The notes beneath the pieces were generated by a model. That model had not been told where the DNA came from and searched no databases. It saw only the letters and a list, made by a program, of their open reading frames with translations. DNA of 64,000 bases from NCBI RefSeq assembly GCF_002741055.1, contig NZ_CP016809.1, positions 5,310,501 to 5,374,500 of the forward strand, written 5' to 3'. A program made the translations under genes and the position numbers. Shown here piece after piece: positions 43,459 to 56,054 of the stretch. Position 1 is the first letter of the stretch. Every line of letters begins with the position of its first letter. Origin of the DNA: Paenibacillus ihbetae. Lineage in GTDB: Bacteria; Bacillota; Bacilli; Paenibacillales; Paenibacillaceae.

Positions 43459-45531
43459 ATGATCAAGGGATTTCCTCCTTACATGAGCGATCCCGATGAA
43501 GGGGACGTAAGGCGCCAATTCAACCGGCGGGTCAATCTGTTCTTTTTCGGCGCTTTCCTCATCTTTTGTGTCCTTATCATTCGCATGGCCGTTCTGCAGT
43601 TCGTGGAGGGCCCGGAGCTTGCTGAAAAGGAGTCCGGGGGAGAGCTGAAAAAATTCACGCTTCAGCCGATCCGGGGAAGCATTATCGATGCCTCCGGCGA
43701 GAAGCTGGCTTATTCGACGGGGACTCATACCTTATATATCACGCTGATGAAGGATTATAACAAGAACACGGAGCGCGGGCAGAAGAACCGGCCGGAAATC
43801 GAAGCGATGGCGAAGGAAATCGCAAAGGTCTTCGCCCAATACGGGGATTCGAAAGCCAAACCGATGACAACCGAAGAGGTGATTGACGAGCTGGATCTTG
43901 AATATACGAAACAGCACGGCTATGCGCCGAGACGGATCAAATCGGATTTGACGAAGCAGGAGATCGCTCATTTCATGGAGAACCGCTCGCGGTACCCGGG
44001 CATTCAGATCGTGGAGGAGAATGTGAGGCATTACGATCCGGACACGGTTGCGGTCCAGACGATCGGGTATCTGAAGAAATTCAAGGGCTCAAAAGATTTC
44101 AAGGAATATGCCGAAATCGATGAGGCGAATAAGGGGCAGGACGATCCGGGATTGATCTACATCGAAGAGGAATGGGTCGGCTATGACGGGTTAGAGCGGA
44201 TGTTCCAGAAAGAACTGCGCGGCAAAAGCGGTTATATCAGCATCCCGATTAATCCGCAGAACATGGTGGACGGCGTCCCGTCCATGGCAGCCCCGGAGAA
44301 AGGGCTTAATGTCCACACGACAATTCATAAGGATATTCAGCTTGCGGCTGAGGAAGCCATTACTGAGCGTCTGCAGTATCTTCGTACCCATCTGATCTCC
44401 GGGAAGTACCACAGGGATGCGTTGACCGGCTATGCCGTCGCTATGGAGGTCGACACCGGCAATGTCGTGGCGATGGCCAGCATCCCGGACTATGACCCTA
44501 ACATTTGGGGGAGCGGAGATAAAATCACTCAGGAGGTCGTCAACTCTTCCGGTAACGGGACGATAACGATCTTCGCCTCGGGCCGGTCGGGCAACGGATT
44601 TGAATCGATGATCTATCTCGGATCGGTCATCAAGCCGTTGACGGTGCTGATCGGGCTCAATGAAGGCCTGTTCACGCCATACGATACGTACCCGGACCAG
44701 GGCTATGCCTTGATCGGCAAACAGGGCAGTGAAACGAAGATCAGAAACTCCGGCGGTCATGTAATCGGTCCGATCCGGCCGGACCAAGCGATTCAGACCT
44801 CGTCCAATGCCTTTATGATCGATCAGGTCGGGGAGAAGCTGTATGACAAATACGGCGGCGACAAAGCCGTTAAAGTGTGGGATGAGTATATGAAGCAGTT
44901 TGGCCTCGGTGTTCTCACCGGCAGCGGATTGCCCCTTGAGAATGAAGGAAGGGCGGAATACCTCGATGCGAAGGCTTCTGGAAGTAACCTGGCCGCGCTA
45001 GCGTTAGCTTCTTTCGGACAAAAGGGCAAGTATACGCCGCTGCAGCTGGCCCAATACACGGTGATGCTGGCTAATGAAGGAAAACGGATCAAGCCGCAGC
45101 TTGCGAGTAAGATCACTGACCAGAAAGGAAACGTCGTGAAGCAGTTTGGCCGTGAAGTCATCGCTGAGGTGAAGATGCCCAAGGAATACTGGCAAGTCAT
45201 CAAGCGGGGCATGAATACGCAGGGGATCGCCGGGTTTGAAGGCTTCCCGTATGACTTTGCCCGCAAAACCGGTACCTCGGAGCAGGACTCTCCTGCCGGG
45301 AGAAAGGATAATGGCGTGTTCATCGCGTTTGCTCCCCGAGAGAAGCCAAAGCTGGCGGTCGTGGTGGTCATACCTGAAGGCGGCTTCGGCTCGCAGAGCG
45401 CCGCACCGGTCGCTCGCAAAATCTTCGATGCCTATGACGAGGTGTACGGCCTTGACGGAACGCCGCATCCGAAGCAGAAGACGGAAGGCAAGGCTGAGCA
45501 GGGTGAGCAGGAGGAGAATCAAGGCGAGTAA
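43459..45531 (+). CDS. Class B penicillin-binding protein (transpeptidase)
   Basis: A 690-residue peptidoglycan transpeptidase: a short cytoplasmic tail, one membrane anchor (NLFFFGAFLIFCVLIIRMAVL), a dimerisation domain from about residue 60 with PIRGSIIDASGEKLAYS, and the catalytic domain. The active-site triad is complete: Ser389-x-x-Lys392 (GSVIKPL), Ser448-Ser449-Asn450 and Lys603-Thr-Gly. The charged C-terminal tail (EGKAEQGEQEENQGE) is unusual. It acts on the outer face of the membrane during wall growth or sporulation. Confidence 0.9.
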   Translation: MIKGFPPYMSDPDEGDVRRQFNRRVNLFFFGAFLIFCVLIIRMAVLQFVEGPELAEKESGGELKKFTLQPIRGSIIDASGEKLAYSTGTHTLYITLMKDYNKNTERGQKNRPEIEAMAKEIAKVFAQYGDSKAKPMTTEEVIDELDLEYTKQHGYAPRRIKSDLTKQEIAHFMENRSRYPGIQIVEENVRHYDPDTVAVQTIGYLKKFKGSKDFKEYAEIDEANKGQDDPGLIYIEEEWVGYDGLERMFQKELRGKSGYISIPINPQNMVDGVPSMAAPEKGLNVHTTIHKDIQLAAEEAITERLQYLRTHLISGKYHRDALTGYAVAMEVDTGNVVAMASIPDYDPNIWGSGDKITQEVVNSSGNGTITIFASGRSGNGFESMIYLGSVIKPLTVLIGLNEGLFTPYDTYPDQGYALIGKQGSETKIRNSGGHVIGPIRPDQAIQTSSNAFMIDQVGEKLYDKYGGDKAVKVWDEYMKQFGLGVLTGSGLPLENEGRAEYLDAKASGSNLAALALASFGQKGKYTPLQLAQYTVMLANEGKRIKPQLASKITDQKGNVVKQFGREVIAEVKMPKEYWQVIKRGMNTQGIAGFEGFPYDFARKTGTSEQDSPAGRKDNGVFIAFAPREKPKLAVVVVIPEGGFGSQSAAPVARKIFDAYDEVYGLDGTPHPKQKTEGKAEQGEQEENQGE

Positions 45532-45587
45532 CAACACGAGTAACAATCACGAGTAACAAGACTAGTAAGACGAGTAAGACGAGTAAC
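45525..45587 (+). repeat. Degenerate CGAGTAA direct repeats
   Basis: The sequence CGAGTAA (with one CTAGTAA variant) occurs six times, with spacings of 12, 13, 12, 9 and 9 bases, starting in the last codons of the PBP gene and running beyond its stop. Each unit holds an in-frame or out-of-frame TAA, which gives a cluster of stop codons. Confidence 0.6.
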
Positions 45588-45648
45588 TAGATGCGGGTTC
45601 AGTGGTATAGCTATTATTATTTCGAATAATTTTGGAGTTAAAAGAAAC

Positions 45649-45697
45649 AGGCTGCCTTCAGGAGAACATTAATCGTTCCCTGTACGGCAGCCTTTCT
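45649..45697. terminator. Bidirectional terminator between PBP and GH105 genes
   Basis: AGGCTGCC and GGCAGCCT form the outer stem, AGG and CCT the inner part. On the plus strand the tail is TTTCTTG; on the minus strand GTTTCTTTT. It fits a shared terminator for the two convergent genes. Confidence 0.7.
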
Positions 45698-45705
45698 TGT
45701 ATCCT

Positions 45706-46737
45706 CTAATAAGGATTATTCTTGACCTTCAGCACTTCGGCCAGAAATGCCAGCGTCAATCCTTGTCCCCAGCCCTGAATTCGCTTATCGGGCACGCCTA
45801 TATAGCCAGCAGCATTCTTCATGACGGCCGTTCCGGCCGATACGCCGGTAACGGTCCCGTCCTCGGTAATTTTGGCCAGGATGCCGTCGATCGATTTCTG
45901 GGTGTATTTATTGTAGATGCGCCCCTTGGTCAGCAATGCGGCGGCGATCCCCGCCGATCCCGACGTTTCCAGCGGCGACTGCGGATCCGTCGTAATGGTG
46001 TGCCACAGCCCGGATTCATGCTGCAGCCGTACGAGCGAGCTCAGCTGATCCCGAAGCGAGCCTTCAATGATCATGAAGGAAGGGTGCGTAACCGGTACGA
46101 GCTCCAATGCGCGCGCCATCGTAAGCGCGGCCCAGGCATTGCCGCGGCACCAAAATACCCCTGACATATGATTGCCGGCAATATTGTCCCAGCCATGATA
46201 GTACAGATTCGTCACCGGATCCTGCAGATAATTCTCATGGCCGTGGTACTGCCGCAGCCCGTCCTCGAAATAATCTTCGCGGCCGAGCAGTGATCCGATG
46301 CGCAGCAGGAAGTAACCGGCCATGAACATTGTGTCCACCCATGCCTGCTCAGGGAAGTTATAGGTTTCGGAGTTGACGGTGTGCTGAAAGATCCCTTCTC
46401 CGAATCGAACGGCATCGTGAGCGAGGTATTCGGCCATTTCCTTGGCTGTTTCGATATAACGCTCATCGCCGTAGACGTTATACAGCGTTAAGAGGGAATG
46501 TCCGATCGAGACGCCGTTCACAGACAGCTTTGGCAGACCATCCTCCATATTTTCGTCGACCCATGCCTTCAGCTGCTCGAGATATTCCATTTTGCCCGTC
46601 GCTTCATACGCCCCGCAAACGCCATAAAACGCAACCCCGCCGGGCCAGTCCCAGCTGAAGTCCATGCGGAATGTCCGCTCCACCACCTTATCCATGACAT
46701 GCCCAATCTGCTGTTCATCAAATACGAGTGCCGGCAT
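45706..46737 (-). CDS. GH105 unsaturated glycuronyl hydrolase (YteR-like)
   Basis: A 343-residue cytoplasmic enzyme of the GH105 (formerly GH88-like) alpha/alpha barrel. The expected general acid is Asp135 in QAWVDTMFMAGYFL. Other conserved parts are MDFSWDWPGGVAFYGV, NIAGNHMSGVFWCRGNAW and the closing KRIQGWGQGLTLAFLAEV. It removes the unsaturated sugar left at the non-reducing end of rhamnogalacturonan or pectin oligosaccharides after lyase cutting. AAAGGAG lies eight bases upstream of ATG 46737. It is the last gene of the locus 2 operon. Confidence 0.9.
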   Translation of the reverse strand: MPALVFDEQQIGHVMDKVVERTFRMDFSWDWPGGVAFYGVCGAYEATGKMEYLEQLKAWVDENMEDGLPKLSVNGVSIGHSLLTLYNVYGDERYIETAKEMAEYLAHDAVRFGEGIFQHTVNSETYNFPEQAWVDTMFMAGYFLLRIGSLLGREDYFEDGLRQYHGHENYLQDPVTNLYYHGWDNIAGNHMSGVFWCRGNAWAALTMARALELVPVTHPSFMIIEGSLRDQLSSLVRLQHESGLWHTITTDPQSPLETSGSAGIAAALLTKGRIYNKYTQKSIDGILAKITEDGTVTGVSAGTAVMKNAAGYIGVPDKRIQGWGQGLTLAFLAEVLKVKNNPY

Positions 46738-46795
46738 AACTGCAGCTCCTTTCATATTAAGCCTCCTTAAGAGGGAGAAATTTGAAATTTGGGGA

Positions 46796-47629
46796 TTAAC
46801 CTTTCAAGCCTGTTGTGCTGATCCCTTCGACGATATATTTTTGGAAGATGAAAAATACGATCACGACCGGCAGCAGCGACAGGGTGGCCATGGCAAACAT
46901 TCCGCCCCAGTTGTTGAGCGATTCCCCGTCGAGGAACAGCTTGAGCGCCAACGACACCGGGTATTTCTCCGGCTGGTTCAGGTAGATCAGCGGGTTGATG
47001 AAATCATCCCATCTCCAGTAAAAGGAGAAGATCGAACACGTGATCAAGGCCGGAACGATCAAGGGCACAACGACGCGGATAAAAATGCCGTACTTGCTGC
47101 AGCCGTCGATCCTTGCGGCTTCATCGAGCTCCCGCGGGATCGTGCGGATAAACTGCATAATCAGAAAAATGAAGAACGGAACCCCGAAGAAATGGGGAAC
47201 GATCAGCGGCTTGAACGTCGAGATCCAGCCGAAATTGGCGAACATGACGTACTGCGGGACGATGACGACGTCATGCGGCAGCATCATGGTGATCATCATG
47301 CAGGCGAACCAAAATTTTTGACCGAAAAACCTTGTCCTAGCCAGACCAAAAGCCACTAATGCGGAAGATACGACGGCTCCTATCGTTGAGATGATGACGA
47401 TGATGAAGGAATTTTTGAAGAAGGTCCCGAAGGTCGTTCCGGCAAATCCCTTCCAGCCTGTTGCATAGTTCGAGAATTCGAGCTTGCTGGGAATGAGACT
47501 GTAGGCGGTCGTAAAGATTTCGTGATTGGGCTTCAGCGAGCTGGCGGCGAGCCACAGGATTGGATAGGTCATGCACAGGGCGAACAGCCCGACCAGCGTA
47601 TGATACAGAATGCGTCCGGATTTGGTCAT
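46796..47629 (-). CDS. Sugar ABC transporter permease, MalG/YtcP type (locus 2)
   Basis: A 277-residue permease with six helices and the EAA loop [20 protein letters not shown]. The C-terminus [15 protein letters not shown] closely resembles the locus 1 counterpart. It is five bases downstream of the LplB-type permease and forms a heterodimer with it. The needed ATPase is not encoded here. Confidence 0.93.
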
Positions 47630-47634
47630 AGCCG

Positions 47635-48537
47635 TCAGTCTCCTTTCGATTCGTAATGAACCCAGCGGGTGGAAGATCTGAAGATGAGCAGGGTAAGGAT
47701 GCCGACAATGACGAGCATAACCCAGGCAAGCGCCGATGCGTAGCCCATTTCAAAATGCGAAAAGGCTTTGCGGTACAGGTAAAGCGAGTACAGCAGCGTC
47801 TGATCCAGCGGACCGCCTTCACCGCGAGAGATGATATAAGCGGGGGTGAAGGTGAGGAAGGCCGAGATGGTCTGCAGCGTCAGATTGAACAAAATGATCG
47901 GGCTCAGCAGCGGGAGCGTAATCTTGAAGAATCGGTGCACGGCATTTGCGCCGTCGACGCTGGCCGCTTCGTAATAATCCTTCGGAATGTTCTTGAGGCC
48001 GGCAAGGAAAATAATCATCGATGAGCCGAACTGCCAGACCGACAAGGCGATCAGCGTCCATAGCGCCGTGCTCGGATTGCCGATCCAGGATGTGCTGGAT
48101 TCGATGCCGAAGAGCGAGAGGGCGGAGTTGACGAGTCCCTGGTCGCCGAAGATTTGCTGCCACATAATCGCGACCGCGACGCTGCCGCCGATCAGGGACG
48201 GCAGGTAAAAGGCCGAACGGTACAGCCCCACAGCCTTGGTCGCCGTATTCAGGATCATTGCCACGAAGAGAGCAAAGATAAGCCGAAGCGGGACACTGGC
48301 AAAAACGTATGTAAAGGTCACCTGAAACGATTTTCCGATTTTATCGTCCTCCGTGAACATCCGCTCATAATTGCCGAGGCCGAGCCAGCTTGGCGCCTCC
48401 ATCAGGTTATAGTTGGTGAACGAATAGTAGAGGGACGACAGGATCGGATACAGCGTAAAGATCAGAAAGCCAAGAACGAACGGAGCGGAGAATACGTATC
48501 CGGTGATATGCTCGTTCTCGCGAAGTCTATTCATCAT
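47635..48537 (-). CDS. Sugar ABC transporter permease, MalF/LplB type (locus 2)
   Basis: A 300-residue permease with six helices and the EAA loop [26 protein letters not shown] stands six bases before ATG 48537 (a second ATG follows); the frame extends seven codons up. It follows the binding protein gene after 227 bases. That gap carries a copy of the locus 2 motif, so the permeases and GH105 gene probably form a separately activated transcript. Confidence 0.93.
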
Positions 48538-48640
48538 TTTCAACCCCTCGTCTTTCAAATTTGACAGCGCCTGTTCGGCGGGTGAATTCGTTGGCGGTTA
48601 GTTCCATTATAGAAAGTCTGACCGAGAGGGCGTTATGAAG

Positions 48641-48669
48641 AAAACCGTCCATTTTGTTTAAAAACCAGA
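48641..48669 (-). promoter_or_regulatory. Locus 2 regulator motif, permease copy
   Basis: Read on the minus strand this contains the core TTTRAACAAARTRVMCGG (48662-48645). It lies 107 bases before the permease start, with a near-copy in front of the binding protein (25 of 29 positions identical). Confidence 0.6.
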
Positions 48670-48764
48670 GGTCCGCCCGGTCCCGGTCATAATAAAGGCA
48701 CCCCCTGCCCCGTACCTGACGTACGTTCGAAAGGAGATGCCTCAAGCTTTAGGTGCATCCGGGT

Positions 48765-50102
48765 CTACTGCTGGGATCTGGCCAGGATCGCATTCGCTTC
48801 CTTCCGGAATTCGGCAGCCGCATCCTCAACCGATATTTTCTTGTACAGGATGCGCTCGCTGAGATCGCGAAGCAGCTTCTCGATTTCCACGGCACCGATC
48901 GGATTCGGCGGATCGCCAGGGCTGCTGTTCGCTTCGGCCCAGGTGACGTAATCGAATATTTTCGCCTCATTCTCGGAGAGCAGCGGCTTCAGCGCTTCCT
49001 TGACTTTAGCGGATACCGGCACGCCACGCTCGCCCTTGATCAGCTTATTTGCCTCGATGTCGTTGATGAAGAAGCTGATGAATTTCGCCGCTTCTTCCTT
49101 ATGCTTCGACGTCTCCGTGACGGAGAAATACATGGACGGCTTCAGGAAGAGCCCTTCCTTCGTGCCCGGTCCCGGCATCGGATTCAGCTCCAGCGGACGA
49201 TCGGGAACGAGATTGGCAACGGCGAGGAACTGGTTGGACCAGCCCGTGCCGGAAATGGCGTTGCCAAGCACGATTTCATCCTCCTCCGCGACGCCTTTCT
49301 TCTGGGCTTCCTTATCCAACGACAGGATGTACCCATTGTCATACCACTTCTGGTAGCGGGTGAAATAATCGATAAAGGCCTGATCATCGGCATAGCCGAT
49401 CGTTTTGCCGTCCGCGCTGTACATTTTTTGGCCGATCGTTCTTAGATAATACGGGAAGAAAACGTCATGCCGGTAGGCGAAGCCACCGATGAGGAATCCT
49501 TTTTCCTTCGCTTGGGCGCCCATTTTGTCCATGTCGTCCCAGGTCCAGTCCTTGCCGGGAATATCGATGCCGTTCTTCTTCATCGTCTCTACGTCGAATG
49601 TCGTCTGGAGTGCGTTGACGCCAAGGTTCATCGCTACCAGCTTGCCGTTTACCTCGCCTCCGCTCAGCGCATTCTCGCTGACATCCGACACGTCCAGGAC
49701 TCCGCTGTCGGTGAACGGCTTCAGATCGGCAAGCTGATTGCGGCCGGCATATTGGTTCAGATAGGAGATGTCCATCTGAATAATGTCCGGAAGACCGCCG
49801 GCTACCGCCTGCGGAGCAAGCTTCTTCCAGTAATCGTCGAACGGGGCATATTCAGGCTCGATGGTGACGTGCGGGTTCTGCTCCTGATACATTTCAATGA
49901 CCTTCAACGTGTAATCGTGCCGGGACTGTCCGCCCCACCAGGCGATGCGCAGCTTGACCGGCTCCTTCTTGTCGCCGGCCGCTGCGGACGGCGCTGTGTC
50001 GGTTCCGGCGCTGGCAGGCTGATCGGCCGAATTGCCGCCGGAGCATCCGATCAGGCTTCCGAGCAAGGAGCACATGAGCACTGCGGTTAACACTTTTCTC
50101 AT
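48765..50102 (-). CDS. Sugar ABC transporter substrate-binding lipoprotein (locus 2)
   Basis: A 445-residue family 1 binding protein. The lipobox GSLIGC makes Cys20 the lipid anchor; a Ser/Ala/Asp-rich linker follows. The mature start KLRIAWWGGQSRHDYTLKVI shares the WWG-x-Q-x-RHD motif with the locus 1 protein. Given the GH105 and acetylesterase neighbours, the ligand is probably an unsaturated or acetylated rhamnogalacturonan oligosaccharide. The gene is preceded by a locus 2 motif and followed by the permeases. Confidence 0.92.
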   Translation of the reverse strand: MRKVLTAVLMCSLLGSLIGCSGGNSADQPASAGTDTAPSAAAGDKKEPVKLRIAWWGGQSRHDYTLKVIEMYQEQNPHVTIEPEYAPFDDYWKKLAPQAVAGGLPDIIQMDISYLNQYAGRNQLADLKPFTDSGVLDVSDVSENALSGGEVNGKLVAMNLGVNALQTTFDVETMKKNGIDIPGKDWTWDDMDKMGAQAKEKGFLIGGFAYRHDVFFPYYLRTIGQKMYSADGKTIGYADDQAFIDYFTRYQKWYDNGYILSLDKEAQKKGVAEEDEIVLGNAISGTGWSNQFLAVANLVPDRPLELNPMPGPGTKEGLFLKPSMYFSVTETSKHKEEAAKFISFFINDIEANKLIKGERGVPVSAKVKEALKPLLSENEAKIFDYVTWAEANSSPGDPPNPIGAVEIEKLLRDLSERILYKKISVEDAAAEFRKEANAILARSQQ

Positions 50103-50199
50103 TCCATTTCCTCCCCTTGGTTGATGAACCCATCTGTGATTCGTTTGATAGTGCTTACATTCCCAATTATTATGTGTAACAAGGGAAAGAGTAAGGAAA

Positions 50200-50228
50200 A
50201 AAACCGTGCACTTTGTTCAAAAAGCAGA
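50200..50228 (-). promoter_or_regulatory. Locus 2 regulator motif, binding-protein copy
   Basis: The core TTTGAACAAAGTGCACGG is read on the minus strand (50221-50204), 101 bases before the binding protein start. The surrounding 29 bases match the permease copy at 25 positions. Confidence 0.6.
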
Positions 50229-50243
50229 TATGTACGTACAAGC

Positions 50244-51788
50244 CTAGCCCTCTTTTCTCATGTATTCCGAAGGCGTGCAGCCCATTTGCTTCTTAAACAC
50301 CTGGCTGAAGTACTGGGGATTATCGCCGAAGCCGAGCTGCTCGGCCATTTCGAAAATTTTGATGTCCGGGTCCTTCGCCATTAGCTCGGTCGCGCGCTTG
50401 ATGCGCAGCTTCATGACGTAATTCGAGAATTTCTCGCCGGTCTCTTTTTTGAACAGCTTTCCGAGATAGTCGGCATTCATGTACAGCATGCTGCATGCAA
50501 CCAGATTCAGGGTCAGCTCCGAATTGCCAAGCTGTTCCTCGATAATCTCGATCATTCTCCGGACGATCGCATTATATTTCATGGTGTTCCGTTCATAATT
50601 CCGCTGGGTAATTTCGATGACCGTTTCTTCCAGAAATGCCTGGATCGACTGAAGGGTCGTCATCTCCGCGATGACCGGTATCCGCTCGTATCTTTCCGCC
50701 ATCTCCTCGGGATCCGTCAGCCGAATAAGGGATACATACTGCGATATGGCGTGGGACTTGGTCATCTCAATGCTTAGCTGTGCCCGCTTCAGTTCATGGA
50801 TGAATTCATTCAGCGCCTGCCGGGCCTCTTGGTGATGACCGGACCGCACCGGCATGCACAGGCGCTGCTCGTCGAAGGAGAATGCACCTTCCTCGTCTTC
50901 GGATTGCAGCGTGTCGTTCGTCGTAATAATGCCGCTCTCGTCCAGGTAGAAGCGGTAATTCAGGCACTGCAGCGTGTCGCTGTACAGCTTGCGCGCCAGC
51001 GTTACGGGCCCCGGATCGCTGACGGCAACCGTCACGTCCAGCTTGTAATACCGCTTGAACGTACAGCGGATGTCCTGGATCCGGTCGTGGAGTTGAAGCC
51101 CGGGCCGCTCCTCTATTAGAACCAGCACATGCGGGCCGATGGTGGTGCTAAGGAGGGTGGTGTCCAGCAGATCCTCGGCAATATTCTTCACGGCGAACAG
51201 ATGCTCGAAATCCGCCTCGCCTTCCAGCTGGAACAGCAGCAGCTGCACCGGCCGGTCGAAGTCGTATCGGAACAGGCTGCGATATTCCTCCAGATCGTTA
51301 AGACCGTAAGTCTTGTTCGTCACGAATTCTTTTAGCACCTGTTCCTTCACATGGGGAAGCACCTTCTCGAAACGGTGCTTCATATCCTGAATGAAAGCTT
51401 CCTTGCGGCGGTGAACCGCCAGGTCGAAGGTAACCTCCTGCAGCGCTTCCCCGATCTTCGACTCATCGGTCGGCTTCAGCAGATAATGCTTAACCCCGTA
51501 CTGCATGGCGCGGTTGGCGTATTCGAATTCGCCGAAGCCGGACAGCAGCACGAACTTGATGTGGGGGTGGCTTGCATAGGTTTTGGCCACGAGCTCGAGG
51601 CCGTCAAGGCCGGGCATGCGGATGTCGCACACGACGATATCGGGCGAATCGCTAACGATTTTTTCGTAGGCTTGGATGCCGTTCTGGGCCGTCCCCGCGA
51701 GCTCGGTTTGATAGGCGGACCAGTCCACCATGCGGGAAATGCCCTCCAGAATGATGCGTTCATCGTCTACAAGCAGAACTTTGTACAT
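50244..51788 (-). CDS. YesN-type response regulator, AraC output (locus 2)
   Basis: A 514-residue regulator. The receiver domain has acidic VDDE (8-10), phosphoacceptor Asp55 in VVCDIRMPG and Lys105 in YLLKPTD. A long central region links it to a C-terminal AraC pair of helix-turn-helix units (LNLVACSMLYMNADYLGKLF and IFEMAEQLGFGDNPQYFSQVF). ATG 51788 has GGAGGG six bases upstream and lies 13 bases after the kinase stop. It is expected to bind the repeated core motif of this locus. Confidence 0.92.
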   Translation of the reverse strand: MYKVLLVDDERIILEGISRMVDWSAYQTELAGTAQNGIQAYEKIVSDSPDIVVCDIRMPGLDGLELVAKTYASHPHIKFVLLSGFGEFEYANRAMQYGVKHYLLKPTDESKIGEALQEVTFDLAVHRRKEAFIQDMKHRFEKVLPHVKEQVLKEFVTNKTYGLNDLEEYRSLFRYDFDRPVQLLLFQLEGEADFEHLFAVKNIAEDLLDTTLLSTTIGPHVLVLIEERPGLQLHDRIQDIRCTFKRYYKLDVTVAVSDPGPVTLARKLYSDTLQCLNYRFYLDESGIITTNDTLQSEDEEGAFSFDEQRLCMPVRSGHHQEARQALNEFIHELKRAQLSIEMTKSHAISQYVSLIRLTDPEEMAERYERIPVIAEMTTLQSIQAFLEETVIEITQRNYERNTMKYNAIVRRMIEIIEEQLGNSELTLNLVACSMLYMNADYLGKLFKKETGEKFSNYVMKLRIKRATELMAKDPDIKIFEMAEQLGFGDNPQYFSQVFKKQMGCTPSEYMRKEG

Positions 51789-51801
51789 GGGAATCCCTCC
51801 A

Positions 51802-53535
51802 TTATAGTGGCAGTGATAGAATGATGCGGGCGCCGAGCCCGGGTGCGCTTTCGATGGATAGACCGTAATTGTCGCCGAAGGCGAGCTTGATGCGTTCGTC
51901 GATGTTGAGCATACCGATGCCGTTGCCAGTGGTCTGCAGGCTTCCGCTTCGGAGACGGTCGATGGTGTCCGGGGCCATGCCCGGTCCGTCATCCTCCACG
52001 ATGACGCAGAAGGCGTGCCGGTCCCGGCGTGTGTAAAGGGTGATCCTGCAAGGCTCGACTGATGGCTCGAGCGCGTAGTGGATTGCATTTTCAAGCAGCG
52101 GCTGCAGGGACAGCTTCGGAAGTTTGCGCTCCAGGTCCTCATCCGGAACGTTCATGCTAAATTCGAGCCTCTCCTCAAAACGAAACTTCTGGATGGTGAT
52201 ATAGTTCTTAACGATTTCGAGCTCGTCTCGGAGAGAAAGAATCGGCTCCTTCAGGCTGACGGAGTTGCGGAGGAGGAAAGCCAGCGCCTGCACCATGTCG
52301 GAGATTTGCGTCTGCTTGTTGATTTTTGCAAGCCAGTTCACGGACTCGAGCGTGTTGTAAAGAAAATGCGGATTGATTTGTGCCTGAAGCGCCTTGAATT
52401 CGGTCTCCTTGACGAGCAGGCGGTTCGCGTAATTTTCGGTGATCAGGACATTGATTCTCTCCACCATCAAACGAAAGGTCCGGTGCAGCAGACCGAGCTC
52501 ATCCATCGCAACAGGGGCCGCGTCTTGAGGGAGCACATTGGCTTCAGCGAAATTCCCTTTCTCGGCCAGCTTCATCCGGGCGATCAAGCTTTCGATCGGC
52601 TTTGTCAGGCCCCTGCTGAATCGAATGCCGAGCAGAATGGCGACTGCGAATATGATGCCGAATACGATGATGACAAGCTCTTTGATAAAAATGATTTGCC
52701 TAAAGGCCTGATTAAATGGGGTGGCATTAATATAAGTCCAGCCCGTATTGGCTGAGCGGTTATAGGCAATGAAATACGTGTGTCCTTCAATCTCCCGGGT
52801 AAAATATCCGCTGCCGGATGATACGTCAGCTTGGATGGAAGCCGGGCTAAAGTTCGGCCGGGTCGGGTAGATGACATCCGTTCCCGAGGTCATGATCAGC
52901 TCCCCTTCTTCAGCTACAGATGTACGTACAAGCTTGTCGATATTGACCCGAATTACGATTGTGCCCAGATAATGAAGGTCGAACAGGGTTCCCGAATAGG
53001 AACGGATCTCCCTGGACAGCAGCAGGGCCGGGTCCTGTTCATCGGGATAGAACCAGCGCTCTTCCCCGTTGGCATCGCCCGCGAGCTGCATAATATGCTG
53101 CATTTTGGCAGGAGCGATCGGAATGACGCTGCCGACATCATGCTGTTTGTTGTTGGAATCGATGAGGTGGATGGAGTAGAGCATCGGCTCGGACCCCACG
53201 TAGTTGAGGAGTCGATCGACAAGCTGCTGCTTCAAGGTGAGCCGGTCATAATCGGAGTCGCTGGCGGCAATCTTCCGTAAGATATGCTGGATCTCCGTGT
53301 CGGTAATCATGTTGAAGGATAATTGCTCGATGCGCTCAAGCTCGGATTCGATGGCCGAAGAGGACAAGTGAAGGACCTTGGAAGATTTGAGATACAGCTG
53401 TCCATCATAGATGGAGAAGGCATACTGCTGAACGATGACCGCGAAGGTGAATGCCATGGCCACGATCAATGTGATCAGGAGCGACAGCTTGTTTTTGATT
53501 TTCATATTTTTGTAGGCTGAGGTCCATTTCCGCAC
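51802..53535 (-). CDS. YesM-type sensor histidine kinase (locus 2)
   Basis: A 577-residue membrane kinase. Helix 1 is near the N-terminus (LSLLITLIVAMAFTFAVIV), then an extracytoplasmic region of about 250 residues, helix 2 (LVIIVFGIIFAVAILLGI), a HAMP domain, phospho-acceptor His390 in INPHFLYN, and an ATPase domain with QPLLENAIHYA and EDDGPGM. The GTG start has AAGGAG nine bases upstream; the frame is open 29 codons further. It probably senses a pectin fragment or bound lipoprotein and signals to the adjacent regulator. Confidence 0.92.
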   Translation of the reverse strand: MRKWTSAYKNMKIKNKLSLLITLIVAMAFTFAVIVQQYAFSIYDGQLYLKSSKVLHLSSSAIESELERIEQLSFNMITDTEIQHILRKIAASDSDYDRLTLKQQLVDRLLNYVGSEPMLYSIHLIDSNNKQHDVGSVIPIAPAKMQHIMQLAGDANGEERWFYPDEQDPALLLSREIRSYSGTLFDLHYLGTIVIRVNIDKLVRTSVAEEGELIMTSGTDVIYPTRPNFSPASIQADVSSGSGYFTREIEGHTYFIAYNRSANTGWTYINATPFNQAFRQIIFIKELVIIVFGIIFAVAILLGIRFSRGLTKPIESLIARMKLAEKGNFAEANVLPQDAAPVAMDELGLLHRTFRLMVERINVLITENYANRLLVKETEFKALQAQINPHFLYNTLESVNWLAKINKQTQISDMVQALAFLLRNSVSLKEPILSLRDELEIVKNYITIQKFRFEERLEFSMNVPDEDLERKLPKLSLQPLLENAIHYALEPSVEPCRITLYTRRDRHAFCVIVEDDGPGMAPDTIDRLRSGSLQTTGNGIGMLNIDERIKLAFGDNYGLSIESAPGLGARIILSLPL

Positions 53536-53577
53536 GGCATCCGTCTCCTTACCTTGGAGTTGAAATGTTGTGTACAC

Positions 53578-53606
53578 ATTATGTACCGGGTTGTAAACGC
53601 TGTCAA
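53578..53606 (-). promoter_or_regulatory. Sigma-A promoter with overlapping cre site
   Basis: On the minus strand TTGACA (53606-53601), 17 bases and CATAAT (53583-53578) form a near-consensus promoter for the kinase operon. TGTAAACGCTGTCA (53592-53605, plus strand) is a perfect match to the cre consensus TGWAANCGNTNWCA and covers the -35. CcpA bound here should block transcription during growth on preferred sugars. Confidence 0.78.
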
Positions 53607-53664
53607 TAAGATTGTCCATCATGGGAACCCGGCCTGCGAGTGACGTTCAGCCCTTTGGAAGTTG

Positions 53665-53693
53665 ACCGGATATTTAAACAAAATAACCGGATA
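53665..53693 (+). promoter_or_regulatory. Locus 2 regulator motif, acetylesterase copy
   Basis: The core TTTAAACAAAATAACCGG (53673-53690) faces the acetylesterase gene, 68 bases before its start. It sits between two ACCGGATA direct repeats (53665 and 53686) whose starts are 21 bases apart, the two-turn spacing often used by AraC-type dimers. Confidence 0.6.
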
Positions 53694-53758
53694 AATGGAT
53701 GGTATTGCGCATATGAGGTCGTGCATAATGGGGGGAGAGCGATTAACGGGAGGGTGTA

Positions 53759-54880
53759 ATGATGCAGAGCGAGGACCGCTATGCTTTTGACTTTGGAACC
53801 GGTGAGCCTGTATTGGGTTACGCGAAAATCATGTCCGATACGCTGTACGAGCCGGCGCGGGGGTACGGTTTCCTGTCCGCTGCAGGACTAACGGGAATAC
53901 GAAGGGAGGGGGAGACGGGACTGGGCGCAGACTTTGTCATCCCGCTTGAAGCCGCCTTTCGGGTGGACGTGCCGAAGGATGGATTATATACGCTCCGTCT
54001 GACGATCGGCGACCCATGGTTTGCAGCGGAAACAACGATTAAGGGACCGGACGGCCAGATGCTGCTGCATCAGCTGCGGACGCCGCCCGGTTATATAGAG
54101 CGTTTCAGCGTAACGCTGCCGGCGGCCGAGGGGCGGATTCTGCTTTATTTTTCCGGCAGAGCGCCGCGATTGAACGGATTGGAATTGGTGCCGGCGCCGG
54201 ACGCTTGCACGGTGTTTATCGCGGGTGATTCGACGGTGGCGAATCAGCCTGCCGATGGCTATCCCTATGCCGGTTGGGGCCAGATGCTGCCGGCCTGGAT
54301 CAAGCCGGATGCAGCCGTAATCAATGCCGCCGCTTCCGGTAGAAGCTCGAAGAGCTTTGTGGACGAAGGCAGGCTGGACCGGATCTGGGCGCGCATGCGG
54401 CCGGGAGATTATTTGTTAATCCAATTCGGCCACAATGACCAGAAGTCTGACCCGAGCCGATATACGGAGCCTTTTTCCACATACAAGGAGCATTTGAGGA
54501 TGTACATCGATGGCTGCAGGGAGAGGCAGGCCGTGCCGATTCTGGTCACTTCGGTTCACCGGCGTTATTTTGATGATAACGGCCGGCTGAAGGATACGCA
54601 CGGAGACTATGTTATCGCAGTCCGTGAGCTCGCGCAGGAAGAGCAGGTGCCGCTTGTCGATCTGGCTGCAATCAGCATGGGGCTGTTCAACGAGCTCGGC
54701 CCGGAAGGTACCCGTTCGATCTTCATGTGGGGTGCGCCTGGAGAATGGGTGAACTTTCCGCTCGGGGTTTCGGACAATACGCATTTTCAGGAGAGGGGAG
54801 CCCTCCGTTTGGCAGAACTGGTGGCCGAAGGTTTGAAGTCGTTGGGGCTTCAGCCGCTATCTCTGTATTTGCGGACGTAG
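53759..54880 (+). CDS. Rhamnogalacturonan acetylesterase (SGNH fold)
   Basis: A 373-residue esterase. An N-terminal beta-rich domain of about 145 residues (DRYAFDFGTGEPVLGYAKI) resembles galactose-binding modules. Then comes an SGNH/GDSL domain with Ser158 in AGDSTVANQ, Asn226 in FGHNDQK, and Asp339 with His342 in DNTHFQE. It removes acetyl groups from rhamnogalacturonan, as YesT-like enzymes do. No signal peptide is visible, so it acts on imported oligosaccharides. The start is ATG 53759 or 53762, with GGAGG upstream. It diverges from the kinase. Confidence 0.9.
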   Translation: MMQSEDRYAFDFGTGEPVLGYAKIMSDTLYEPARGYGFLSAAGLTGIRREGETGLGADFVIPLEAAFRVDVPKDGLYTLRLTIGDPWFAAETTIKGPDGQMLLHQLRTPPGYIERFSVTLPAAEGRILLYFSGRAPRLNGLELVPAPDACTVFIAGDSTVANQPADGYPYAGWGQMLPAWIKPDAAVINAAASGRSSKSFVDEGRLDRIWARMRPGDYLLIQFGHNDQKSDPSRYTEPFSTYKEHLRMYIDGCRERQAVPILVTSVHRRYFDDNGRLKDTHGDYVIAVRELAQEEQVPLVDLAAISMGLFNELGPEGTRSIFMWGAPGEWVNFPLGVSDNTHFQERGALRLAELVAEGLKSLGLQPLSLYLRT

Positions 54881-54958
54881 CTCGGATGAGAGTCATGTGA
54901 TGATCTTTCAAATTTATGTCGTGCTGGGAGCATGGGATGATCGCTCGTACTGGAAATC

Positions 54959-55028
54959 GTAAGCTCATCGTAAGCGCATCATGTTGTAAGCGCATCATGT
55001 CGTAAGCGCATCATGTCGTAAGCCCATC
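54959..55028. repeat. 16-bp tandem repeat array
   Basis: A 16-base unit, GTAAGCGCATCATGTC, occurs three times in tandem (54970-55017, one T variant), flanked by partial copies (GTAAGCTCATC before, GTAAGCCCATC after). More degraded copies continue to about 55110. The array fills much of the 380-base gap between the acetylesterase and the ASRT gene; I see no ORF or promoter in the rest. Confidence 0.75.
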
Positions 55029-55260
55029 TATTATGGAAATCGCATTGCGAATGTGCGGGCAATCGTAAGCCCAATCATGTGGCTACCGTAAAGCAATCGC
55101 AAGCCACAATCATATAGACATCGGATGGCAATTCGTGCGGTAGATGCAGCCCCCCCTGTTTTCGTCAATTTCTAGAAGGACGGAACAGGAACCAATGCCC
55201 TGTGCGACGAATGATTAAGTATCAAGCGAGAGCAATTTTGCGTCAGGAGGTGTTGTTCGG

Positions 55261-55641
55261 ATGTCAAAAGGCGAAACCTTGTGGATCATTCCCGATGGCT
55301 ATATTCCGCCGCAGAGCAGCGGCGAATTAACGAGTCATGAGTCGGTATGCGTGCTGAATACATCGGAGAAAGACGTGACGGTGACGATTCATGCCTATTT
55401 CGAGGATCGCGAACCGCTGATGGGCATGGAAACGATCGTGCCGGGGAGACGGACCCGCCACATTCGTACGAGCTCGCTGAGCGCCGATGGACGGACGATT
55501 CCGGCAGGTGTGCCGTATGCGATGGAGGTCGTCTGCAGCGGGCCCGTTTATGTGCAGTACAGCCGTCTCGATGCTACCCAGGCGGAAAATGCCCTTATGA
55601 GCGTAATGGCATACCCCGTCAAAGGGAGCGGGAGCGTATGA
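55261..55641 (+). CDS. ASRT-fold protein (sensory rhodopsin transducer family)
   Basis: A 126-residue protein closely following the Anabaena sensory rhodopsin transducer family: LWIIPDGYIPPQSSGE, SHESVCVLNTSEKDVTVTI, FEDREPLMG, and the end LDATQAENALMSVMAYPV. The fold is a beta sandwich that forms a tetramer. No rhodopsin gene is nearby. Here it follows pectin genes, in line with the idea that the family binds carbohydrate or regulates sugar enzymes rather than light sensing. AGGAGGTG lies before the ATG. It overlaps the GNAT gene by four bases. Confidence 0.82.
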   Translation: MSKGETLWIIPDGYIPPQSSGELTSHESVCVLNTSEKDVTVTIHAYFEDREPLMGMETIVPGRRTRHIRTSSLSADGRTIPAGVPYAMEVVCSGPVYVQYSRLDATQAENALMSVMAYPVKGSGSV

Positions 55642-56054
55642 GGCAGGTCGAGCCCGCGATCACCTATACGTCGGAGCTGCCTGAGGACTTTACGGAACTG
55701 TTCGAATTATACAACGCTTTAGGCTGGAATTCCCTGAACTTGAACGTTCGGGAGCTCCAAGCCATGTGCGAAGGGAGCTGGTACAGCGTCTATGCGTATG
55801 AAGGGAACCGCTTCGTCGGTATGGGTCGGGTCATTTCGGACGGCGTGCTTACCGGGCTCTTATGCGGCGTTTGTGTGCATCCGGATGTTCAGGCCAGAGG
55901 GATCGGCACCGGCATCGTTCAAAGGCTTGTCATGCATTGCGAGAAGTTTGGAGTCATTCCCCAGCTGTTATGCGAACAAGGATTGGAAGCCTATTACGAA
56001 AGGCTGGGTTTCACGACATTTACGATTGGCATGAAAAAGAACATCAAGCGCTAA
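55638..56054 (+). CDS. GNAT N-acetyltransferase
   Basis: A 138-residue acetyltransferase: ELPEDFTELFELYNALGWN opening, acetyl-CoA motif VCVHPDVQARGIGTGIVQRL, and closing YYERLGFTTFTIGMKKNI. The ATG overlaps the TGA of the ASRT gene (ATGA), so the two are translationally coupled. A longer frame upstream is out of register with the ASRT gene and is not used. The substrate is unknown. Confidence 0.82.
   Translation: MRQVEPAITYTSELPEDFTELFELYNALGWNSLNLNVRELQAMCEGSWYSVYAYEGNRFVGMGRVISDGVLTGLLCGVCVHPDVQARGIGTGIVQRLVMHCEKFGVIPQLLCEQGLEAYYERLGFTTFTIGMKKNIKR

Follow-up and report, generated by a model that had tools for sequence, protein, structure and literature searches.

The window analyzed here, a 64,000-nucleotide stretch of the Paenibacillus ihbetae genome (contig NZ_CP016809.1, positions 5,310,501 to 5,374,500), includes a locus with the gene content of a YesMN/RhgKL-type regulon, i.e. 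a sensor kinase and an AraC-type response regulator (RR) that adjoin the gene of a YesO-type transporter (Table 1). The substrate-binding protein (SBP) of this transporter is 100% identical to that of the nearest related locus (L058; L and G numbers are our labels for loci and genomes), and the locus further encodes two permeases, perm1 and perm2, a GH88/GH105-type protein and, divergently, a GDSL esterase. The solved relatives of the esterase are YxiM and a fungal rhamnogalacturonan acetylesterase, and it is itself a probable rhamnogalacturonan acetylesterase. Upstream of the SBP, perm1 and esterase genes stand three copies of a tandem element, composed of two 16-base half-sites in direct repeat with a pitch of 21 bases; these very probably serve as activator sites for the YesMN-type two-component system encoded in the same locus.

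Table 1. Genes and candidate regulatory features of the locus, in window coordinates.
Feature	Position	Strand	Basis or remark
YesM-type sensor kinase	51802..53535	-	Pfam His_kinase, HATPase_c
YesN-type AraC RR	50244..51788	-	Pfam Response_reg, HTH_18, HTH_AraC
YesO-type SBP	48765..50102	-	Closest solved chain YesO, 5z6b, E 4.7e-130
First permease, perm1	47635..48537	-	Pfam BPD_transp_1; start ATG 48537, by reading
Second permease, perm2	46796..47629	-	Pfam BPD_transp_1
GH88/GH105 unsaturated glycuronyl hydrolase-type protein	45706..46755	-	Pfam Glyco_hydro_88; solved GH105 relatives
GDSL esterase	53759..54880	+	Pfam Lipase_GDSL_2, AGA-YXIM_GBD
Tandem element, SBP promoter	50193..50229	-	Half-site A 50229-50214, B 50208-50193; 43.3 bits; 48/55 loci
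Tandem element, perm1 promoter	48634..48670	-	Half-site A 48670-48655, B 48649-48634; 36.9 bits; same place in several relatives
Tandem element, esterase promoter (weak)	53665..53701	+	Half-site A 53665-53680, B 53686-53701; 17.9 bits; ACCGGATA repeated, pitch 21
SBP promoter -10, AATAAT	50166..50171	-	32 bases after CGG; by reading; aligned position in relatives
perm1 promoter -10, TATAAT	48606..48611	-	33 bases after CGG; by reading
Esterase promoter -10, CATAAT	53724..53729	+	33 bases after CGG; by reading
Kinase promoter, TTGACA-17-CATAAT	53578..53606	-	11/12 matches; conserved in relatives
cre-like TTGACAGCGTTTACA, overlapping the kinase -35	53592..53606	-	At most 1 mismatch in 12/13 relatives
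cre-like TGTAAGCACTATCA, right behind the SBP -10	50146..50159	-	1 mismatch to the consensus

The initial annotation had singled out an 18-base core upstream of the esterase (53673-53690, plus strand), SBP (50221-50204, minus) and perm1 (48662-48645, minus) genes, 68, 101 and 107 bases, respectively, before start codons at 53759, 50102 and 48537. A search of the window recovered all three exact copies with these strands and distances, as well as the agreement of the two minus-strand copies at 25 of 29 positions, and a scan of the whole genome gave the same three as the only exact matches in 6,593,819 bases. With up to three mismatches the core has seven matches in the window (100 shuffles: mean 0.87, largest 4). 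With up to two mismatches it has 16 matches genome-wide against nine for the reversed pattern; inexact matches are thus mostly noise, and the 18-mer was discarded as a genome-wide probe. The 13 two-mismatch matches other than the sites, as read against mechanically called open reading frames (ORFs), lie in genes in nine cases, are apparently non-coding in three and are ambiguous in one. A two-mismatch match at 47884 (+) was rejected as a coding coincidence, the opposite strand encoding the permease peptide PIILFN; this match recurs in several relatives. What did not survive is the core as the unit of the motif: with two halves repeating at a pitch of 21, the core covers the join between them, taking in the end of A and the start of B, and is therefore out of register.

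Both half-sites approximate CWCKGnTTTTTnAACA; across loci, the consensus is CWCKGnTTTTTnAACA for A and nWCKGnTTTTTnnATT for B. The comparison covered 55 loci, i.e. the window and 54 of 79 related loci (the other 25 being L099-L110, L112 and L114-L125), and the element was found within 300 bases upstream of the SBP gene in 48 of them; the anchored site was not found in L076, L084, L093 and L095-L098. Because TTTTTnAACA served as the search anchor, information comes only from the remaining columns, namely the preceding CWCTG, then the CGG, the second T-run, the ATT and the later -10 element, and after similarity weighting the 48 sites amount to about 16. At a pitch of 21 the two halves agree on average at 9.33 of 16 positions over the 48 sites, and no other pitch between 16 and 29 exceeds 6.42; in L080, L090 and L091 both halves start with CTCTG, GTCTG or CACTG. 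Within the window, the esterase site has 10 of 16 identities at a pitch of 21 (five or fewer at other pitches from 15 to 28), 21 is the best pitch for the perm1 site (8 of 16), and pitches of 20, 21 and 22 score equally at the SBP site (7 of 16). The half-sites of the yesO (SBP gene) promoter of L034 (in G009) apparently stand at a pitch of 22 rather than 21.

The position of the element relative to the -10 is close to fixed, with the -10 lying 32 bases after the CGG in 40 of the 48 sites, 33 in four and 31 in two. In the window and L058, the CATAAT picked by the script is at 29, yet an AATAAT stands at 32. A 17-base spacer would let the -35 begin within the final bases of half-site B, where the poor -35 sequence would befit an activated promoter. 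A direct repeat spaced by about two helical turns, the proximal half touching the -35 and the fixed -10 spacing are together the features of AraC-family activator sites. AraC itself, at araBAD, binds direct-repeat half-sites some 21 bases apart, the promoter-proximal one touching the -35; the likeness lies in the half-site spacing and the -35 contact, whereas AraC is a one-component, sugar-bound regulator with a different half-site sequence.

Since the core pattern had been written from these same three sites, they were also scored with a matrix trained on SBP promoters of other species, the window and L058 being held out. The three sites are the top three matches in the window; the next reaches 6.6 bits, and other loci of the same genome, 142,956 bases in total, give no more than 3.8. 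The fourth matrix match, at 50440 (+), was rejected, as it lies antisense to the regulator's own helix-turn-helix and similar sequences recur in other regulators.

Beyond the window, the tandem pattern with at most two mismatches occurs in 64 of 197 genomes of the family and in 30 of 398 genomes of the class, with zero matches of the reversed pattern in both scans; the recovery of yesO sites is not independent evidence, because the pattern was derived from sites of the same family. The family matches number 72, of which 65 flank a YesO homologue, 60 at 75-245 bases before its matched part and five at 99-327 after it; the latter stand upstream of the first permease in both cases checked (L127 and L136). 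The other seven lie before PL11 lyases (L156, L232 and L235), before a GDSL esterase of the window-type architecture (L234) and, as named by eye, before a permease (L233) and a kinase (L138/L238, 327 bases) and at a short esterase-like fragment (L128/L239). Eight of the 10 class matches outside the family are by YesO, permease or PL11 genes; the other two, L190 and L199, have no tie to rhamnogalacturonan genes and were rejected as regulon sites.

The element co-occurs with the regulator, as is expected of a YesMN/RhgKL-type regulon. YesN orthologues (threshold E up to 1e-90) are present in 81 of the 197 family genomes; motif and YesN occur together in 63, YesN alone in 18, the motif alone in one and neither in 115 (Fisher p 1e-33, kinship ignored). 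From 11 loci with a YesO gene but without local YesMN, six genomes were tested, and all six carry YesN elsewhere (52-54% identical); in each, a site scoring 40 bits or more stands next to the remote YesN gene; of two further genomes tested for a site beside YesN, one has a match of 51.1 bits and the other, at 6.9, has no such site. In L059-L068 and L083 the YesO gene is apart from YesMN and the second half of its site has diverged; in this clade the YesO-type gene adjoins a LacI-type regulator gene. The proposal in the initial annotation that the core is a target of the YesN-type regulator thus fares well, given the tandem repeat by the -35, the presence of YesN in 63 of the 64 motif genomes and the sites before unlinked lyases in relatives.

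Several observations weigh against this assignment to YesMN. The esterase site, at 17.9 bits, falls well under the training minimum of 35.4, for which reason we regard it as a weak member; it is also missed by the tandem pattern at three mismatches, such that the genome scan returns only the other two sites. An esterase-side site is recognizable in six of 10 relatives inspected. When columns of the second half were permuted (2000 trials; mean 5.11, sd 1.12), the maximum, 9.76, exceeded the observed 9.33, and T-runs therefore supply part of the pitch signal. The tandem pattern is absent from 18 of the 81 YesN genomes; the matrix scan covered six of these 18, five of which carry weaker matches (20.9 to 35.6), while the sixth has no site. 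In G149 a YesO gene adjoining YesN has no site (L032, matrix -0.6), and the element is absent before the second YesO copies of two genomes (L222 in G025 and L206 in G154). YesN-like proteins, 45% identical, are encoded within about 10 kb of the L222 and L206 copies, which perhaps represent a paralogous system with a different site.

Judged by their upstream sequences, the kinase-regulator pair, the SBP gene, the permease-GH88/105 genes and the divergent esterase gene each appear to have a promoter of their own. That the locus comprises several activated units rather than one operon, as initially annotated, is plausible because perm1 and the esterase are each preceded by a site and a -10 of their own. 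The boundaries are less distinct: a scan for intrinsic terminators in the RR-SBP and SBP-perm1 gaps found none and, among the matches listed, several relatives lack the perm1 site, so that sub-operonic promoters with read-through are possible. The same two observations would fit a single operon read from the yesO promoter, in which the sites are real, the perm1 site adds little and the division into separate units is wrong. We consider this rather unlikely, as a TATAAT stands at the expected distance in the permease promoter and the second site is kept in several relatives. A 12-pair hairpin with a weak U-tract, predicted between the SBP and perm1 genes (48743-48695, minus strand), also speaks against a single operon, although 22 of 200 shuffles fold as well or better (z -1.40), i.e. 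it is not unusual for its composition; this hairpin may protect or attenuate the transcript.

The sites might be genuine activator sites yet serve another AraC-type protein, e.g. an RhgR-like large AraC protein or a paralogous RR. Related regulators abound in the genome, with 104 stretches matching at E up to 1e-10, and RhgR is said to control rhamnogalacturonan genes in Bacillales (PMC3870299). Such an assignment is nonetheless improbable: the element follows the YesN orthologue even where the genes of YesN and YesO lie apart, the other full-length matches to YesN in the genome are at most 31% identical, and no other regulator was found to track the site, though no candidate was specifically tested. 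Still less probable is a motif without a specific regulator, whether a conserved A/T-rich promoter upstream element or a relic of promoter duplication. T-runs account for a large share of the element, but conservation extends to the CWCKG and CGG letters, and the pattern recurs before unlinked lyases in other species and is nearly confined to YesN genomes.

The strong promoter of the kinase gene and the sequences resembling catabolite-responsive elements (cre) are additions to the account given in the initial annotation. The longest ORF of the kinase begins at ATG 53622; the start is most likely GTG 53535, which has an AAGGAG ribosome site, because the kinase promoter sits downstream of ATG 53622. 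Matches to the generally known cre consensus recur at a fixed promoter position in both the yesO and the kinase promoters. In the yesO promoters they lie 43-45 bases after the CGG, with at most one mismatch in 27 of 48 and at most two in 37 of 48; the corresponding means for other offset windows are 0.05 and 0.52. L077 has a kinase promoter with two-mismatch cre matches only.

From the sequences, their geometry, their conservation and their co-occurrence with YesN, we infer a mechanism of the following kind for regulation by YesMN. The kinase would sense a rhamnogalacturonan product and then phosphorylate the AraC-type regulator, a dimer of which would bind the two half-sites, 21 bases or two helical turns apart in direct repeat. 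With the second half-site touching the poor -35, the bound regulator would aid RNA polymerase in starting from the -10 located 32-33 bases downstream. CcpA, acting on the cre-like sequences that overlap the kinase promoter and follow the yesO -10, would close the locus down while preferred sugars are available.

The circuit so predicted resembles one already reported in B. subtilis, for which the title of Hirooka 2022, as cited in PMC12632257, states that RhgKL and CcpA directly control rhiLFGN-rhgR-yesTUV; the putative operator is well defined here. RhgKL probably corresponds to YesMN, as judged from gene order, with rhiLFGN-rhgR-yesTUV matching yesOPQR-yesS-yesTUV. A yesOPQRSTUVWXYZ order is given, and induction by rhamnogalacturonan cited, in PMC5730181. 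The two systems would share a two-component system and CcpA; they differ in genus, in that the permeases and the divergent esterase here have their own sites, and in that the cluster as read lacks rhgR and yesUV. For Caldicellulosiruptor bescii, PMC8579813 likewise reports that AraC-type two-component systems, taken there as activators, have sites in the form of tandem repeats that precede promoter elements, whereas the rhamnogalacturonide transporter locus of that organism is there said to have no dedicated regulator. For pneumococcal YesN, the authors of PMC11034029 identified no clear repeat motif but suspect a direct repeat that includes AATTC and conserved T stretches, and they propose CTWWWWWWAG for RR07; these regulators are of the same RR type but have other targets. 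The portions consulted of PMC3572039 and PMC10766802 describe no comparable site, and our literature search, in which coverage of subscription papers was poor, found no paper joining YesN with rhamnogalacturonan.

The results thus provide an exact, testable candidate operator for an AraC-type RR; such regulators are very common in Paenibacillus, but their sites are rarely defined. With this operator it should be possible to predict rhamnogalacturonan genes, unlinked lyases of relatives among them, by DNA sequence alone, and the corrected register of the motif governs the design of footprints and mutants. On balance, we incline to the broader proposal that the rigid module (half-sites at a pitch of 21, 32-33 bases to the -10 and a yesO cre at 43-45) is a signature of the rhamnogalacturonan regulon across Bacilli, which may have been gained and lost before single genes, splitting an ancestral operon into separately activated units and, in other species, bringing unlinked PL11 lyases under the same sensor.

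The PL11 rhamnogalacturonan lyase gene of the same genome (L240-L241, C1:6249120-6251090) has no upstream tandem element, unlike PL11 genes of five other genomes, and with a best score of -10.2 (in L240) this lyase (6249120) was, on the matrix test, rejected as a regulon member. An Rfam search of window positions 45000-56000 gave no family at gathering score. The 14-mer ATGTACGTACAAGC is present twice in the locus, at 50230-50243 and 52920-52933, probably by chance.

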